DNA from: Chloroflexota bacterium
GTDB lineage: Bacteria > Chloroflexota > Anaerolineae > Promineifilales > Promineifilaceae
Direction of reading: 5' to 3'
Assembly: GCA_024275635.1 (NCBI GenBank)
Contig: JAJRYT010000139.1
Coordinates: 1 to 64,000, forward strand
Length of the DNA stretch: 64,000 bases
Below, one piece after another: positions 309 to 8,265 of the stretch (position 1 is its first letter; each line of letters starts with the position of its first letter). A model generated the notes under the pieces. The model had not been told where the DNA came from. It saw nothing but the letters and a program-made list of their open reading frames with translations, and ran no database searches. Position numbers and translations under genes: made by a program.

Positions 309-1343
309 ATGTTTGATTCTTTAACGGAACGTCAGGAAAAAATTTTGGGTCTGGTGGTGCGCTATTACATTGAAACGGGCGCGCCCATCGGGTCGAGTAC
401 GCTGGTGAAGCAGCATGAACTGGATGTGAGTTCAGCGACTGTGCGTAATGAGCTGTCTGCCCTGGGCGAGATGGGCTACCTGATGCAGCTGCACACATCG
501 GCTGGTCGTATTCCGTCAGAGCTGGGATATCGTTATTTTGTGCAAAAATTGCTGGGCGAGTTTCTTTTGCCGGTAGATGAGCGGCAGATGATCCGGCATC
601 AATTTCACCAGGCGCGGTTGGATATGAGCCAATGGATGCGTCTGGCGGCGGCCATTTTGGCGCGGACTTCTCACGGAGCCAGTTTTGTCACCGCCCCACA
701 AATACGGCCGTCTCGCTTCAAGCACGTTCAACTCATATCTACCCAGGGCCGGTTGGTCTTGATGATATTGGTGTTGTTTGGCGGCGAGGTGAACCAGCAA
801 ATGCTGACGCTGGCCGAACCCTTGCCCCAGGCTCAGTTAAGCGCCGCCGCCGAGCGGCTCAACGGCCTGTTTGAAAATGCCACAAATGATGATATAGCCG
901 CTCAGGTCAATCAATTAAACCCGCTGGAGCAAGAAATATCCCGCCTGGTGTTGGAAGTTTTGCAGCACAGCGACGCCCAAACGATCCGCGATATTTACCG
1001 CGACGGTTTAATCAATCTGATAGAAGATAAAGGCACACGTCAGGCGGTACGGGTATTGGAAGAACGAACCCTTATGGCCAATGTATTGACGGAAACACAG
1101 CCGCCTGACGCAACAGGCGTGCAGGTGGTGATTGGCGGTGAAGGGCGTTGGGAAGAATTAAAGGACTGTACGATCATCCTGTCTCGTTATGGGGCGGTCG
1201 AACAGTTTAGCGGCACGGTCGCGGTGATTGGTCCGACGCGCATGGCCTACGGCCGTAATGTAGCCGCCGTGCGTTATGTGGCCGATTTAATGAGCGGGTT
1301 TGTCTACCAATACTACATGGAAGACTTGAGTCTGGATTCGTAA
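309..1343 (+). CDS. hrcA: Heat-inducible transcription repressor HrcA
   Basis: HrcA represses class I heat-shock genes by binding CIRCE operators, with its activity set by GroE. The 344-residue product has the family's usual length. It opens with the winged-helix segment (LTERQEKILGLVVRYYIETG, then SSATVRNELSALGEMGYL around residues 40-60). It closes with the conserved motif VAVIGPTRMAYGR near residue 315. The gene leads a co-directional grpE-dnaK-dnaJ-prmA run, the classic order. The ATG at 309 lacks a clear Shine-Dalgarno, but no better start exists. I could not find a CIRCE element before hrcA, grpE or dnaK, so how this copy recognises its targets is open. Confidence 0.95.
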   Translation: MFDSLTERQEKILGLVVRYYIETGAPIGSSTLVKQHELDVSSATVRNELSALGEMGYLMQLHTSAGRIPSELGYRYFVQKLLGEFLLPVDERQMIRHQFHQARLDMSQWMRLAAAILARTSHGASFVTAPQIRPSRFKHVQLISTQGRLVLMILVLFGGEVNQQMLTLAEPLPQAQLSAAAERLNGLFENATNDDIAAQVNQLNPLEQEISRLVLEVLQHSDAQTIRDIYRDGLINLIEDKGTRQAVRVLEERTLMANVLTETQPPDATGVQVVIGGEGRWEELKDCTIILSRYGAVEQFSGTVAVIGPTRMAYGRNVAAVRYVADLMSGFVYQYYMEDLSLDS

Positions 1344-1393
1344 CTCAGTGAGAGTCCGGAGAGTGATTGTCGATTTGAAGTTATTGGTTCTTC

Positions 1394-1423
1394 GTTATTG
1401 GTTTGGTTTTAACAACCAATAAC
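1394..1423 (+). terminator. Hairpin between hrcA and grpE
   Basis: Arms GTTATTGGTT and AACCAATAAC are separated by a 10-base loop. The hairpin lies 50 bases after the hrcA stop. The stem is AT-rich and no U-run follows, so it may be a weak terminator, an mRNA stabiliser or a repeat remnant. Confidence 0.4.
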
Positions 1424-1511
1424 CGGTGACTAATGACTCAATGTCATTAAGTTAACGAATGATGTTCCGCGTTTTTTTAGGCAACAGCGAATTTTAGTAA
1501 GGTGAATTTTG

Positions 1512-2075
1512 GTGAGCGAAAAGACAAAAGATGAAGTAGAACAACGGGAAGAAGAGCCAATTATTGAGCTGGCAGAAGAGGAAACGGCCGTGGCCGACGC
1601 AGAAGAAACAGAGCCGCTCTCCCTCGAAGAGCAGCTAAACGCCGCGCAAGCCGAAGCTGCCAAAAACCTGGATGGCTGGATGCGCGCGCAGGCCGAATTT
1701 GCCAACGCCCGCAAGCGGATGGAAAAACAACGCGCCGAGACATACCTCAACGCTACTGCCAATATGGTCACCAAACTGCTGCCGGTTTTGGACGATTTTG
1801 AGCGGGCGTTAGACACTGTGCCCGCCGAGATCGCCGAGAACATCTGGCTGGAAGGTATCCAACTCATGCAGCGCAAACTGCTAACTATCCTGGATGAATT
1901 GAACATCAAGCCGATAGACGCAGTAGGTCAGCCATTTGACCCCAACTTCCACGAGGCCATCATGCAAGAGCCGGCCGATGCGTATGAAAGCGGCATGGTG
2001 AGCAAAGAGCTGCAAAAAGGGTACCAATTAGGCGATCGGGTGATACGGCCGTCCCTCGTATACGTGGCCGAGTAA
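1512..2075 (+). CDS. grpE: Nucleotide exchange factor GrpE
   Basis: GrpE releases ADP from DnaK to restart the chaperone cycle in the cytosol. The protein of about 187 residues has an acidic, Glu-rich N-terminal third, a helical dimerisation region (around YLNATANMVTKLLPVLDDFE) and the GrpE beta-domain signature near the end (PFDPNFHEAIM, then VIRPSLVYVAE). I chose GTG 1512 because AAGGTG lies seven bases upstream. A TTG at 1509 is the alternative and adds one residue. It sits between hrcA and dnaK, as in most HrcA-type heat-shock operons. Confidence 0.93.
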   Translation: MSEKTKDEVEQREEEPIIELAEEETAVADAEETEPLSLEEQLNAAQAEAAKNLDGWMRAQAEFANARKRMEKQRAETYLNATANMVTKLLPVLDDFERALDTVPAEIAENIWLEGIQLMQRKLLTILDELNIKPIDAVGQPFDPNFHEAIMQEPADAYESGMVSKELQKGYQLGDRVIRPSLVYVAE

Positions 2076-2277
2076 ACAACACAACCATACAAATACAATT
2101 CATATTTTATACCGTGCATTTCATACGTAAATCCAATCTTTATCCTTTACGGTAAGATGCACAACCTAAACAACACAACAAAAAAGAGACTTTTGAAGGA
2201 TTTTCCTCTGAAAAAGGGATTCTGAAAACAAAAACTTCAAGAGTTCGAAAGTGAACATAAGTGAGGATTAAATAAAC

Positions 2278-4182
2278 ATGGGCAAAATAATAGGAATTGA
2301 CTTAGGAACAACCAACTCGGCAGCGGCCGTTATGGAAGGCGGCGAACCCGTCATTATCTCCAGCGCTGAGGGTGATCGCCTATTCCCCTCCATCGTGGCC
2401 GTCAACTCCAAAACCGGCGAACGCCTGGTAGGCAAAGTCGCCAAACGGCAAGCCGTCATCAATGCACAAAACACCATTTTCTCGGTGAAACGGTTCATGG
2501 GACGCAAATACGATGACCCGGAAGTGGTACGCGCTCGCAAATACGTATCATATGATGTCCGTAAAGCGCCCAACGGTGATATCCGTGTGGTGATGAACGA
2601 ACGCGAATATTCCCCGCCGGAAATCTCAGCCATGATTCTGCAAAAAATCAAAACCGACGCCGAATCATTCCTGGGTCAACCAGTGACACAAGCTGTCATC
2701 ACCGTTCCCGCCTATTTCAACGACAGCCAGCGCCAGGCCACCAAAGACGCCGGTAAAATCGCCGGTCTGGAAGTTTTGCGTATCGTCAACGAACCAACGG
2801 CTTCCTCCCTGGCTTATGGCCTGGGCAGCGACAAAGACGAAGTGATTGCTGTTTACGATCTTGGCGGCGGTACATTCGATATTTCCATACTAGAAGTGGG
2901 CGATGGCGTTTTTGAAGTGAAATCCACCAACGGCGATACCTTCCTCGGCGGCGATGACTTCGATCAAGCAATAATTGATTGGGCGGCCGAGCAGTTCAAA
3001 ATGGACCAGGGTATAGACTTGCGTAACGATCGCCAGGCGCTGCAACGCTTACGCGAAGCGGCGGAAACAGCCAAGATTGGCTTATCCACGACCATGCAAA
3101 TGGAATTGAATCTGCCCTACATCACAGCCGACGCTACTGGTCCCAAACATCTCAATCTGACCCTGACACGGGCCAAACTAGAGCAATTAACGGCCGATCT
3201 TATCCAACGCTCCATCGAACCCTGCCGTCTGGCCCTGAAAGATTCCGGATTGTCCCTGTCCGACATCACTCAGGTTGTGCTTGTCGGCGGTATGACCCGG
3301 ATGCCGGCCGTTCAAGAAGCCGTGAAGAAATTCTTCGGCCGAGAACCGCACAAAGGCGTCAACCCTGATGAGGTCGTCGGTCTAGGCGCGGCCATCCAGG
3401 CTGGCGTGTTGGGCGGCGATGTGAAAGATGTGCTGCTGCTGGATGTCACTCCGCTGACCTTGAGCATTGAAACATTAGGCGGTGTGTCCACACCCTTAAT
3501 CGAACGCAACTCGACCATCCCCACCAAGAAAAGCCAGGTGTTCTCCACCGCTGCCGACAGCCAGACACAGGTAGAAATCCACGTCGTGCAGGGCGAACGA
3601 CCCATGTCGACCGATAACAAGAGCCTGGGCCGCTTTATTCTCGACGGCATTCCGCCGGCGCCGCGCGGCGTACCGCAAATTGAAGTCAGCTTTGATATTA
3701 ACGCCGATGGCATTTTGAATGTAATGGCCAAAGACAAAGCGACCGGCCGTGAACAGGCGATGCAAATTGTGGCCTCCGGCGGCTTGGACGATGCCGAGAT
3801 TGAGCAAATGGTGAAGGATGCGGAGCAGTTTGCCGCCGACGATGCGAAACAAAAAGAGGCTGTCGAAGCCCGCAATACGGCCGATTCTTCCGTTTACAGT
3901 GCGGAGAAGTTCCTGGCCGATAACGGCGAAAGCCTGCCTGAAGCTCAGAAAGCGGCCGTACAGAGCCAGATTGATGCCGTAAAGTCGGCGCTGGAAGGCG
4001 GCGATACAGCCGCGATGCAAGCGGCAACTAATCAATTGCAAGCGGTCATGCAAGAAGCTGGCGCAGCCATGTACCAACAGCAGCAAGCCGCCGCCGGTGG
4101 CCCAGATGGCGCAGCCCCTGGCAGTGATGGCGATGGCGGCGGCGCTGAAGAAGATGTCATTGAAGGCGAATTTAGCGAGTAG
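2278..4182 (+). CDS. dnaK: Chaperone DnaK (Hsp70)
   Basis: DnaK is the ATP-dependent Hsp70 chaperone that works with the flanking GrpE and DnaJ. The 634 residues show the full architecture. Phosphate-binding motif GIDLGTTNS is near residue 6 and [12 protein letters not shown] near 190. Connect region [15 protein letters not shown] is near 335. The substrate-binding domain begins with [14 protein letters not shown], and the C-terminus is Gly/Asp-rich, ending [14 protein letters not shown] 2278 is preceded by GTGAGG at suitable distance. The 202-base gap before it holds only AT-rich sequence without a recognisable CIRCE, and it may carry its own promoter. The gene lacks the ACGGCCGT palindrome common elsewhere in the window. 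Confidence 0.98.
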
Positions 4183-4186
4183 TAAA

Positions 4187-4259
4187 CAAGCAAGATTGCA
4201 AGATTGCAAGAACGCAGGTTTGCAAGTAAGCAAGTGGCGGGTACTCCCTCCACTTGCTT
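4187..4259 (+). repeat. TTGCAAG-rich repeat with terminal hairpin
   Basis: Several copies of GCAAGAT/TTGCAAG are followed by a hairpin with arms AAGCAAGTGG (4228-4237) and CCACTTGCTT (4250-4259) around a 12-base loop. Related TTGCAAG runs occur after the second HlyD gene (about 15551) and after znuB (about 44275). It may weaken transcription between dnaK and dnaJ. Confidence 0.5.
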
Positions 4260-4285
4260 TCTTGCGTACTTGTACATTTTAATCT

Positions 4286-5443
4286 ATGTCCAATAAACGA
4301 GATTATTACGATGTATTAGGTGTTCCCCGTACGGCGACGAAGGATGATATGAAAAAAGCCTTTCGTCGTCTGGCCCGCCAATATCACCCGGATGTGAATA
4401 AAGAGAATGATGCCACAGAACGTTTCAAGGAAGTGAATGAAGCGTATGAGGTGTTGTCTAACGAAAAAATGCGGGCGACTTATGATCAGTTTGGCCACGC
4501 CGGGGTACAAAATGGGGGCGGTCATGGATTCTCTGGGTTTGAAGGCGGGTTTGGTAATGTGGCCGATATTTTTGAAGAGTTTTTTGGCGGCAGCTTCGGT
4601 GGCGGCCGCCGCCGCCGTCGTGGGCCAAGACGCGGCCAGGATTTGCAATATAGGCTGACTATTTCGTTTGAAGAGGCTGTTTTTGGCGCGGAGAAGGAAA
4701 TTGAGGTGACTCGCCCGGAGATTTGCCCCGGCTGCAACGGGTCGGGCGCAAAAGCAGGCGCCGCGCCGATTGCCTGTACGAATTGTAACGGATTGGGTCA
4801 TGTGCGCCGGGTTCAACAGTCTATCTTAGGGCAGTTTGTCACGGAAGCGCCCTGTCCAACTTGCCAGGGAACGGGCGAGTTGATCCCAGAAGTATGCGAA
4901 ACGTGTCATGGGCAAAAGCAAATCCAGCAAACGCGCACGCTAAAGGTTAAAATTCCGGCCGGTGTGGATAATGACACCCAAATTCGCCTGACTGGGGAAG
5001 GGTCGCCGGGCGCTAATGGGGGGCCGCCAGGTAACCTGTATGTTGTCCTTTATGTGCGTAAACATCAATTCTTCCAACGGCGGGGCACTGATGTCTGGCT
5101 TGATCTGCAAATTAATGTGGCGCAGGCGGCGCTGGGCGATGAAGTGATGGTTCCGACGCTGGATGGTGAACAGACGTTGATTATCGAACCGGGTACCGAG
5201 TCCGGAAAAGTGTACCGGATACGGGGGTTGGGCGTACCGCGTTTGGACCGGCGTGGTCGTGGCATACCTATGGGACGAGGCGATCAGCATGTATTGATTC
5301 ATGTGTCTATCCCTACGAAGCTAACGCCGGAACAGGAACGGTTGTTCAAAGAGCTTTCTCTCACGTTGGGGAAAGAGGTTATTCCGCAGCAAGGTAAGGG
5401 TATTTTTAGCCAGTTGAAGGATGCTTTTTTTGGTAAAGCTTAA
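4286..5443 (+). CDS. dnaJ: Co-chaperone DnaJ (type I)
   Basis: DnaJ stimulates DnaK ATP hydrolysis and delivers substrates. The 385-residue protein has a J domain at residues 4-70 with the essential HPD (in RQYHPDVNK) and a Gly/Phe-rich linker (about 75-110). Its four-repeat zinc-binding region reads CPGCNGSG, CTNCNGLG, CPTCQGTG and CETCHGQK. Two C-terminal beta domains follow. Presence of the Cys-rich region makes it type I. The fourth Cys repeat ends in Lys where Gly is usual, a minor departure. The stop is five bases before prmA, so the two are probably co-translated. Confidence 0.97.
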   Translation: MSNKRDYYDVLGVPRTATKDDMKKAFRRLARQYHPDVNKENDATERFKEVNEAYEVLSNEKMRATYDQFGHAGVQNGGGHGFSGFEGGFGNVADIFEEFFGGSFGGGRRRRRGPRRGQDLQYRLTISFEEAVFGAEKEIEVTRPEICPGCNGSGAKAGAAPIACTNCNGLGHVRRVQQSILGQFVTEAPCPTCQGTGELIPEVCETCHGQKQIQQTRTLKVKIPAGVDNDTQIRLTGEGSPGANGGPPGNLYVVLYVRKHQFFQRRGTDVWLDLQINVAQAALGDEVMVPTLDGEQTLIIEPGTESGKVYRIRGLGVPRLDRRGRGIPMGRGDQHVLIHVSIPTKLTPEQERLFKELSLTLGKEVIPQQGKGIFSQLKDAFFGKA

Positions 5444-5448
5444 GTTTT

Positions 5449-6369
5449 ATGTACTGGCTTGAAGTTAGTGTTATTACGGATGGGGAGGGGGCTGAGGCGG
5501 TGGCTGAGGCGTTACGGCCGTTTACCGACAATGACAATGTTGTGTTGGAACAGTTGGGGGATGAGACAAGTCCTGATCCGGATGCGCTGGAAACGGCCGT
5601 TGCCGTCAAAATCTACATCCCCGAAGAAGACGATTCCCCAGAACTACGCCGCCGCCTGGAAGAACTGCTGTATCACATGGGCCGTCTCTATCCTCTTCCG
5701 TCGCCCACTTTTCGTGAATTAGCTGAAGAAGATTGGGCTAATGCGTGGAAAGTCCATTATCATCCATTTCGCATAGGCCGTAAAATCTGGATTCAACCGA
5801 GCTGGCTTGAGCAGTCGCCGGCCACTCCGGGTCAAGACGGCATCCGTTCTGGCGATGTGGCGCTGACTTTAGACCCAGGGATGGCCTTTGGAACCGGGCT
5901 GCACCCCACAACGCAAATGTGCCTGCTGGCGCTGGAGGAATTGGTGCGGCCAGGGATGACCGTTTTAGACGTTGGTACCGGCTCGGCGATATTGGCGATT
6001 GCGGCGGCCAAATTAGGCGCGCAATCGTTGTTGGGGATTGATACCGACAAGTTAGCGGTGCAAGCGGCGGCAGACAATGTCGCCAAGAATGGGGCGTCGG
6101 ATCGAATTGTTATCCGGCAGGGGACGTTGGATACGATAACGGAACGCGACTGGGATATCGTAGCCGTCAACATCTTGGCCCCGGTGATCATTGGCTTGTT
6201 TGAGCGGGATGGGCTGCTAGATTATGTGGGGGAAAACGGCCGTCTTATTCTGAGCGGTATTATTGAGGAACAGGCGGCGGGCGTGGGAACGGCCGTTGCC
6301 GCTGCTGGCGGGCAGATTATTCAAACATTCAACGTACGCGATTGGGTTGCATATGTTGTCAGCCGATAG
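5449..6369 (+). CDS. prmA: Ribosomal protein L11 methyltransferase PrmA
   Basis: PrmA trimethylates ribosomal protein uL11 with S-adenosylmethionine. The 306-residue product has the substrate-recognition N-terminal domain, a central signature TLDPGMAFGTGLHPTT (about residue 141), the Rossmann SAM motif VLDVGTGSAILAIAAAKLGA (about 170) and the motif IVAVNILAPVI (about 240). It follows dnaJ by five bases, an arrangement common in many bacteria. A hairpin at 6387-6417 separates it from the convergent infA. It carries several ACGGCCGT octamers (5511, 5592, 6236, 6291). Confidence 0.93.
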   Translation: MYWLEVSVITDGEGAEAVAEALRPFTDNDNVVLEQLGDETSPDPDALETAVAVKIYIPEEDDSPELRRRLEELLYHMGRLYPLPSPTFRELAEEDWANAWKVHYHPFRIGRKIWIQPSWLEQSPATPGQDGIRSGDVALTLDPGMAFGTGLHPTTQMCLLALEELVRPGMTVLDVGTGSAILAIAAAKLGAQSLLGIDTDKLAVQAAADNVAKNGASDRIVIRQGTLDTITERDWDIVAVNILAPVIIGLFERDGLLDYVGENGRLILSGIIEEQAAGVGTAVAAAGGQIIQTFNVRDWVAYVVSR

Positions 6370-6471: not shown

Positions 6472-6714
6472 TCACCTGTTGCGGGGAGTGCGTTGTTTAC
6501 GATAGCGATATGTAATACGCCCTCGGCTCAAATCATACGGCGTCATTTCCAGACGAACGCGATCACCTAACAAAATGCGGATGTAATACTTACGCATTCG
6601 GCCCGATAAATAAGCCAAAACCTTATGCTCATTATCCAGTTCAACTGTGAACTGAGTGTTGGGCAAAAGTTCAACCACTGTTCCTTCAACTTCAAGTTTA
6701 TCTTTATTCGCCAT
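6472..6714 (-). CDS. infA: Translation initiation factor IF-1
   Basis: IF-1 occupies the ribosomal A site during initiation. The 80-residue protein is a single OB-fold and matches the family closely: [19 protein letters not shown] at the start, then [20 protein letters not shown] and the conserved basic end RITYRYRK. It begins 14 bases after the rpsU stop and ends the rpsA-rpsU-infA run. In many bacteria infA sits with secY/map/rpmJ, so this neighbourhood is less usual. The C-terminal tail QRTPRNR is a few residues longer than the E. coli protein. Confidence 0.95.
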
Positions 6715-6728
6715 ATATTCCTACAAAA

Positions 6729-6923
6729 TTACCGGCGCATACTTTGTTTGCGCCGCACCCGCCGGAGAGCCTTTTTCTTTTCGATTCGCCGCATTTCACT
6801 CTTGGAAACATGCCACCGTTTTTGCCGAATAACGCTCATCGTACCGGCTTTGGTGACACTTTTTCGAAACCGCCGGAGCAAACTCTCATCGGTTTCGTTA
6901 GGCATTAATGTTACTTGTGGCAG
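6729..6923 (-). CDS. rpsU: Ribosomal protein bS21, apparent CTG start
   Basis: bS21 is a small, very basic 30S subunit protein near the mRNA exit. The product aligns with bS21 by its N-terminal beta strand and the motif ESLLRRFRKSVTKAG, and ends in a highly basic tail (KKKALRRVRRKQSMRR). The most upstream start codon of the frame, GTG 6932, shares a base with the Shine-Dalgarno and cannot be used. The CTG at 6923 lies eight bases after AGGAGG and places Met directly before PQVTL, where other bS21 proteins begin. The next ATG (6905) would delete the first strand. I therefore call a 64-residue protein starting at CTG. It lies 55 bases after rpsA. Confidence 0.8.
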   Translation of the reverse strand: MPQVTLMPNETDESLLRRFRKSVTKAGTMSVIRQKRWHVSKSEMRRIEKKKALRRVRRKQSMRR

Positions 6924-6927
6924 ACCA

Positions 6928-6937
6928 ATCACCTCCT
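6928..6937 (-). promoter_or_regulatory. Very strong Shine-Dalgarno of rpsU
   Basis: On the minus strand the sequence AGGAGGTGAT matches ten bases of the canonical anti-Shine-Dalgarno complement. Its distance to CTG 6923 fits initiation there. It excludes GTG 6932, whose first base is the last base of AGGAGG. Confidence 0.75.
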
Positions 6938-6978: not shown

Positions 6979-8265
6979 TTATTCTTCTTCACTGCTGTCC
7001 GCTGCGGTCTCTGCGGCAACTGCTTTAGCCTCAGCAACCGCGTTAGCATCCACGCCATCTTCGGTAGCGATGTCTGCTGCTACCGCTTCGACCGCTTCTT
7101 CTGTTTCAACATCGGGCGCATCTTCACTTTCTTCGTGCGTTTCAATTTCGCGCTGCGCCATCCATTCAATTTGTTCGTTCGCTGTTACCGCCCGCAAACT
7201 TAACCCCATCCGTTGGCGTTTAGGATCAATGCTTACAATTCGCAATAAATGAACCTCATCTTCTTGCATGACTTCATGAGGGTCTTGAATATTGCTGCGC
7301 GAAAGTTGAGAAATGTGTAACAGACCTTCAACGCCAGGTTCGATTTCCGCGAATGCGCCGTAATCAACAATGCGCGTAATGGTTCCCTCAACAAGTTGGT
7401 GAACGGCGTACCGTTCTTCAACAGTTTCCCAGGGATTAGGCAGCAACCGTTTGCGACTTAAGCTGATCCGTTGTTCCTTCCGATCAAGGCGGAGTACATA
7501 AACCTCGATCTCATCGCCTACACTAACCACCTCGCGCGGGTGGGTAACGCGATGCCAGGCCAGTTCTGAAATGTGAACCAGACCATCAGCTCCGCCTAAA
7601 TCAACAAAGATGCCAAAATCACGCAGACCGCTGATACGGCCTTTAAGAATGGCTCCTTCTTCCAGGCTGTTGAGCAGTTCTTGTTTACGAACTTCTTCCC
7701 ATTCTTTTTGGGCTTCGCGCTGTGAAAATACCAAACGACGGCGACGACGATCTACCTCAATAATTTTGAGGGGCAATTTCTCGCCGCGCAGCTTGGCCAA
7801 CCGCTGTTGACGTTTACGATCGCCCATGCCTGGGGTTAAATCTTTGAGGTGTGAAGCGGGAACAAACCCGCGTAACCGACCAAACGGCACGATTGCGCCA
7901 CCCTTGTTGTAACCGATGACTTCGCCTTCAATGATCTCGCCACTCGCCATTAGCTTTTCAGCTTTAGTCCAGTCCTGGTTAAGACGGGCTAAATTGATAG
8001 ATACCTTCAAACTGTCTGGCTCTGACGCACTTAGAATGTATACATCAATTTCGTCATTGACTTTGAAACTGTTTCGTTCCTCCGGATCGAGTTTGCTCAA
8101 ATCCATTGGCGGGACGAGGCCGTCCCGTTTTAGTCCCAGGTCAACAATGATGTCTTGATCGTTAATGGCTACGATGATACCCTTGCGGATTTCACCTACT
8201 TTGGGCAACTGATAATCATGTTGTTCCAAAAGCTCTTGGTAAGAGTCTGTCGTTTCTTCGGTCAT
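6979..8265 (-). CDS. rpsA: Ribosomal protein bS1, four S1 domains
   Basis: S1 binds mRNA and helps load it on the 30S subunit. The 428-residue product has four OB-fold S1 domains, near residues 22-95, 110-190, 205-275 and 290-360. Each shows the hydrophobic pattern typified by GRISGLRDFGIFVDLGGADG and GLLHISQL. An acidic, Ala/Glu-rich tail follows from about 370. Four domains is the short form seen in Gram-positive bacteria and Chloroflexota (E. coli has six). The gene leads rpsU and infA. Its leader contains a terminator-like hairpin (8310-8350) between a possible promoter and the start codon. Confidence 0.93.
   Translation of the reverse strand: MTEETTDSYQELLEQHDYQLPKVGEIRKGIIVAINDQDIIVDLGLKRDGLVPPMDLSKLDPEERNSFKVNDEIDVYILSASEPDSLKVSINLARLNQDWTKAEKLMASGEIIEGEVIGYNKGGAIVPFGRLRGFVPASHLKDLTPGMGDRKRQQRLAKLRGEKLPLKIIEVDRRRRRLVFSQREAQKEWEEVRKQELLNSLEEGAILKGRISGLRDFGIFVDLGGADGLVHISELAWHRVTHPREVVSVGDEIEVYVLRLDRKEQRISLSRKRLLPNPWETVEERYAVHQLVEGTITRIVDYGAFAEIEPGVEGLLHISQLSRSNIQDPHEVMQEDEVHLLRIVSIDPKRQRMGLSLRAVTANEQIEWMAQREIETHEESEDAPDVETEEAVEAVAADIATEDGVDANAVAEAKAVAAETAADSSEEE

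Follow-up and report, generated by a model that had tools for sequence, protein, structure and literature searches.

Extended Shine-Dalgarno sequence and probable CUG start codon of rpsU in a family of Chloroflexota

Extended Shine-Dalgarno sequences and poor start codons in described systems

AUU, AUC, and AUA start codons are a known trait of infC, which is autoregulated by IF3. A further system concerns rpsU, the gene for bS21: in Flavobacterium johnsoniae, bS21-free ribosomes translate the extended-Shine-Dalgarno (SD) rpsU better (McNutt et al. 2023, PMC9976891). In Staphylococcus aureus, conserved AUA and AUU start codons are found behind extended SDs (PMC13009471); in poor medium their output is about 10% of that from AUG. 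According to that study, the bS21 of Escherichia coli would hinder the extended helix. Weak pairing of the first CUG base is described for E. coli complexes containing a variant initiator tRNA (PMC11497404). Bacteria hardly ever start translation at CUG: a reconstruction gave 2 switches to CUG among 61,358 ancestral AUG starts (PMC5622118). A ribosomal-protein gene that apparently retains this codon across ten genera, and in two paralogous copies, is therefore unusual.

The gene considered here is rpsU in a window of 64,000 nucleotides (the whole stretch of DNA that was analysed) from a Chloroflexota bacterium of the family Promineifilaceae. It resembles the extended-SD rpsU of Bacteroidota in that the same gene has SD-16S pairing of -13 kcal/mol or stronger, far above that of other ribosomal-protein genes (energies here were computed by RNAduplex with a 13-nt 16S tail, a program different from that of PMC9976891), and it differs in its putative CUG start and in the use of SDs by the other ribosomal-protein genes. 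With the S. aureus genes described in PMC13009471 it has in common that a very weak start codon and an extended SD are conserved jointly, although the genes there are infC, cvfC1, ccpN, and citZ and the codons differ. The terms "CUG" and "Chloroflex" are absent from the main text of PMC9976891, as are "rpsU" and "CTG" from that of PMC13009471. No CUG-start rpsU was found in the literature covered, which included few of the subscription journals.

The rpsU start region in the window

The original prediction had placed the start of bS21 at a CTG codon behind a ten-base SD match, at the right distance and giving the N terminus of the protein family. Each of these points was borne out (Table 1). 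The minus-strand sequence around the start reads AAAGT AGGAGGTGAT TGGT CTG CCA CAA GTA, in which AGGAGGTGAT is complementary to the 16S tail and the CTG lies 8 nt downstream of AGGAGG. Matches to 16S in the window genome stop at profile position 1387 of 1533; because the assembly thus lacks the 16S tail, the anti-SD was taken from relatives: 15 of 51 family genomes, including G001, a member of the window's genus, carry an exact GGYTGGATCACCTCCTTT. The product read from CTG matched the bS21 profiles PF01165 (39 bits; cut-off, 27) and TIGR00030 (42.3 bits; cut-off, 28.95), with position 1 of the latter on residue 2, directly after CTG. The stop codon is at 6731-6729.

Table 1. Positions of the rpsU start signals and neighbouring genes in the window
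Feature	Position	Strand	Basis
CTG start codon of rpsU (bS21), predicted	6921..6923	-	CTG, TTG, or ATG at the start column of all 52 family genes; constant 8-nt spacing in 25/25 CTG genes
Extended SD, AGGAGGTGAT	6928..6937	-	Ten-base match to relatives' 16S tail; -18.4 kcal/mol; conserved on gene tree
rpsU coding region from CTG, 64 residues and stop	6729..6923	-	Frame and profile matches
In-frame GTG within SD, rival start, judged unused	6930..6932	-	Upstream pairing of -4.3 kcal/mol
Internal in-frame ATG, judged non-start	6903..6905	-	Lysine codon in L037
Upstream gene, S1-domain protein with four S1 stretches	6979..8265	-	Profile matches
Downstream gene infA (IF-1)	6472..6714	-	TIGR00008, 111.3 bits (cut-off, 61.15)

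Going outward from CTG, the in-frame codons are GGT, ATT, GTG, GAG, and TAG. Because the TAG at 6938-6936 closes the frame, the GTG is the sole in-frame ATG, GTG, or TTG upstream and, as had been predicted, shares one base (G6932) with AGGAGG; the next in-frame ATG after CTG is that at 6905. In 214 kb of the window genome, the only CTG sites of open reading frames (ORFs) of at least 60 codons with an SD of -13 kcal/mol or stronger were those of its two bS21 genes; this and the recurrence of the arrangement in 25 of the 52 family genes speak against chance. With the comparative data given below, the sequence indicates that translation of rpsU very probably begins at CUG 6923.

The S1-domain gene and infA were both found beside rpsU at 9 of the 52 family loci (CTG genera g1, g19, and g21; ATG genera g10, g11, and g20), infA alone at two loci cut near the contig start, and a less similar S1-domain frame near rpsU at three further loci. 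On the plus strand, positions 309-6369 of the window contain frames converging on infA whose translations, as we read them, presumably represent HrcA, GrpE, DnaK, DnaJ, and a PrmA-type methyltransferase. A hairpin of -7.1 kcal/mol was predicted at 6953-6925 of the minus strand, its 3' arm covering GGTGATTGG of the SD, and a like pairing seems possible in G001. A conserved leader structure in the family was not supported, the mean z of the 25 CTG leaders against mononucleotide shuffles being -0.47, and Rfam gave no match in the window at the gathering threshold.

Start codons and Shine-Dalgarno strength among relatives

In the window's family, bS21 was found in 47 of 52 genomes, five of the 52 having two copies, and the 52 genes were aligned at a start column located by means of their profile match. 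This column held CTG in 25 genes, ATG in 14, and TTG in 13, with no other codon. The CTG-start arrangement was conserved among relatives as a non-canonical start in 10 of 22 genera (g1, g4, g5, g9, g13, g14, g15, g18, g19, and g21), and it was constant within g4 (7/7), g5 (4/4), g15, and g18. An alignment of this kind had been suggested as a check in the original prediction, which took an ATG in relatives as evidence against the CTG; the ATG of the 14 genes marks the same start column and therefore supports the CTG reading instead of refuting it. The internal ATG at 6905 was not conserved, since L037, a CTG-start gene of the window's genus, has lysine there. Assembly error as the source of CTG was ruled out by the 25 genes and 10 genera. 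A CUG start as a trait of the window's family is strongly supported.

The second bS21 gene of the window genome (L001, 1501-1659, G000:C121) also has a CTG start, is about 50% identical to the window bS21, and is not beside S1 or infA genes; two kinds of ribosome in one genome are conceivable. The second copy in G001 (L012, G001:C462) starts with TTG, and its SD, at -7.7 kcal/mol, is weaker than any other in the family. An Anaerolineae metagenome-assembled genome record, JANTHP010000130.1, has a bS21 start region identical to that of G001.

Outside the family, CTG was almost absent. Among 18 bS21 genes in the same alignment, none had CTG at the column, and five were out of register, four with ATG one codon later and L035 with an even later start. 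Of 302 loci from a scan of named genomes, 80 were kept, and these gave 33 TTG, 30 ATG, 10 GTG, and 3 CTG, with 4 out of register; the three CTG loci were the already counted G001, G020, and G022. A pattern combining GGTGA with any NTG, blind to genes that have a different SD or that differ at the residues it fixes, matched 114 of 396 genomes of the class in 121 rows, comprising 16 CTG, 6 TTG, and 5 ATG within the family and 44 ATG, 25 GTG, 24 TTG, and 1 CTG elsewhere (n = 94). A CTG-only pattern, likewise blind to genes that differ at the residues it fixes, matched 3 of 400 genomes of the phylum, all in the window's family. In a viral scan for phage copies, no relative of the bS21 query alignment was confirmed.

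The sole CTG row outside the family (G103:C515; L302, 1660-1727) reads TGA GTT CAA CTG. Its in-frame TGA takes the place of the family's GTG and leaves no possible upstream start in G103; an in-frame TTG follows five codons past the CTG. This gene, from another family of the class, is a second copy beside the TTG copy L303, and its CTG start possibly arose independently.

On the family gene tree (165 columns; of 53 inner branches, 21 starred and 21 open), the first start base changed at least 12 times and the second and third bases never; for comparison, third codon positions changed 14.9 times on average. In 36 genes, SD positions -15 to -6 showed 0-4 changes on the tree and other upstream positions 6-18. 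The 8-nt spacing to the SD core was present in all 25 CTG genes versus 12 of the 27 ATG and TTG genes (Fisher, 4.6e-6, the related genes not being independent), so that genes with this spacing had CTG (25), TTG (10), or ATG (2) at the column. Upstream pairing in the 25 CTG genes ranged from -16.2 to -19.3 kcal/mol for CTG and from -2.0 to -5.3 kcal/mol for the GTG, which is in frame in all 25, so that within the family the sole argument against it is that it has no SD.

The median SD of rpsU was -17.2 kcal/mol versus -9.3 kcal/mol for control starts, and pairing reached -13 kcal/mol or stronger in 50 of 51 family genes (L046, at a contig end, was left out; L012 was the exception) versus 5.6% of 465 controls. 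Mean values were -17.3 kcal/mol for ATG, -17.3 kcal/mol for CTG, and -16.4 kcal/mol for TTG genes. Because the SD is equally strong before ATG and CTG, it does not compensate for the weak codon, and the two are not a coupled pair. In the named-genome scan, 74 of 79 genes, some of them family members, reached the same threshold. This strength across start codons and genomes marks the extended SD as the wider trait, to which CUG was added in the window's family.

The 465 control starts came from ribosomal-protein operons of 20 genomes and represented 25 gene families with a clear start column, chosen by N-terminal consensus and bearing what we take to be the appropriate ribosomal-protein names; rows with a non-NTG or gapped column were dropped. 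They comprised 394 ATG, 51 TTG, 20 GTG, and no CTG. Mock sites of the control genes had a median of -4.4 kcal/mol versus the -9.3 kcal/mol at true starts, showing that SDs are in ordinary use; other ribosomal genes thus use SDs, unlike in Flavobacterium, and a global masking of the anti-SD is not indicated. Clusters left out included uL23, uL5, a cluster beginning LPxDIAILQL, and Adk, uL30, and uS9, the last three because the chosen column was mixed. CTG was present in the flagged columns of uL23, uL5, and the LPxDIAILQL cluster and once in uS9. The two CTG rows of uL23 have ATG two codons upstream, those uS9 rows that were found on re-inspection had ATG starts, and CTG in uL5 (7 of 19 rows inspected) and in the LPxDIAILQL cluster was judged by eye to be internal. 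Other weak starts were also conserved in the ribosomal operon (L232-L251, 20 genomes): TTG in 17 and GTG in 3 of 20 uS3 genes, TTG in 16 of 16 uS4 genes, TTG in 16 and GTG in 1 of 17 RpoA genes, and GTG in 15 of 20 uL3 genes.

General use of CUG in these genomes was not supported. Relative to background, the frequency of CTG behind an SD at three thresholds was 0.75-1.08 in G055 (400 kb) and 0.86-1.36 in G000, the window genome (214 kb). In a hexamer count, CTG accounted for 15/2426 (0.62%) versus 0.43% overall in ORFs of at least 60 codons and for 8/1811 (0.44%) versus 0.49% overall in those of at least 100 codons. An initiator tRNA with a CAG anticodon was likewise not supported: a CAG-loop pattern occurred in G011, G015, and G007 of 51 genomes, only G015 having a CTG rpsU, and ARAGORN found no tRNA at the G011 site. 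The initiator of G000 is ordinary, a CAT tRNA-Met being present (L304).

Possible control of bS21 synthesis through the start signal

The original prediction had coupled the CUG start to tuned or autoregulated synthesis. The start itself gained from the start column, the fixed spacing, and the near lack of an SD before GTG; autoregulation in its simplest form was weakened, the SD being equally strong before ATG. Regulation of bS21 via the start signal is plausible, and we moderately favour a reading that combines translation from CUG, clamping by the extended SD helix, and feedback by bS21. The helix would clamp the mRNA onto the 30S subunit and keep CUG in the P site until fMet-tRNA is accepted despite poor first-base pairing; probably it is the SD that allows CUG to be used. 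bS21 lies beside the SD helix, and subunits lacking it should therefore form the long helix more readily, so that translation of rpsU would peak under a shortage of bS21 and be throttled under an abundance of it. By analogy, such feedback by bS21-poor ribosomes on rpsU is put forward tentatively. The weak codon may lower basal output and make initiation dependent on the helix. A double gate, in which the helix forms only on bS21-free 30S subunits and CUG is accepted only with the helix, is a possible though doubtful extension. From the precedents in Flavobacterium, S. aureus, and E. coli, we infer both that the helix could carry CUG initiation and that bS21 occupancy could modulate it. As with infC, a component of initiation is here encoded by a gene that itself starts at a poor codon, and the infC case is present in this family too; the proposed sensor here, unlike in the infC/IF3 system, would be the SD helix.

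The main rival reading is that a very strong SD buffers initiation without any regulation, leaving the first start base nearly free, with TTG to CTG as the easiest change. The 12 first-base changes, near the mean at third codon positions, the like SD strength across start codons, and a sister family in the same order whose four genes all have TTG are consistent with it. It is nonetheless rather unlikely: GTG was found in none of the 52 family genes but accounts for 25 of the 94 rows from the rest of the class, CTG is constant within the four genera named above, and the SD of rpsU is just as strong outside the family, judged by the scan that included some family members, with almost no CTG there.

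Control of the IF3 type, by which CUG would make rpsU sensitive to IF3 proofreading and bS21 would follow the levels of initiation factors and not of bS21, appears unlikely. infC was found in 48 of 52 family genomes, and at 21 of 30 infC loci (L081-L110) the stretch from the in-frame stop to the conserved domain offered ATT, ATA, or ATC but no NTG; this lack of usual starts and the position of infA downstream of the window-type rpsU fit such control, but sensitivity would be lower in those members of the gene that start with TTG or ATG. To our knowledge, bS21 is not a start-codon proofreader. Initiation at GTG 6932, with a Met-Ile-Gly extension ahead of Leu-Pro, is very improbable in spite of the frame being open in every family CTG gene, because the GTG lies inside the SD with little upstream pairing of its own, a free leucine in the NTG-only column would also use the other four leucine codons (about 44%, 3392/7781, in sampled ORF frames), and a stop codon excludes it in the G103 CTG gene and in L059, a family TTG gene with TGA between GTG and TTG.

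Gene finders limited to ATG, GTG, and TTG would misplace the rpsU start. The extended SD of rpsU is shown in a phylum other than Bacteroidota, alongside ordinary SD use, and the case poses whether a strong SD alone makes CUG work and whether bS21 decides. If the double gate is true, the start codon would make the helix a sharp bS21 sensor in Chloroflexota, and rpsU autoregulation separate from the Bacteroidota form would exist in bacteria with ordinary SD usage.
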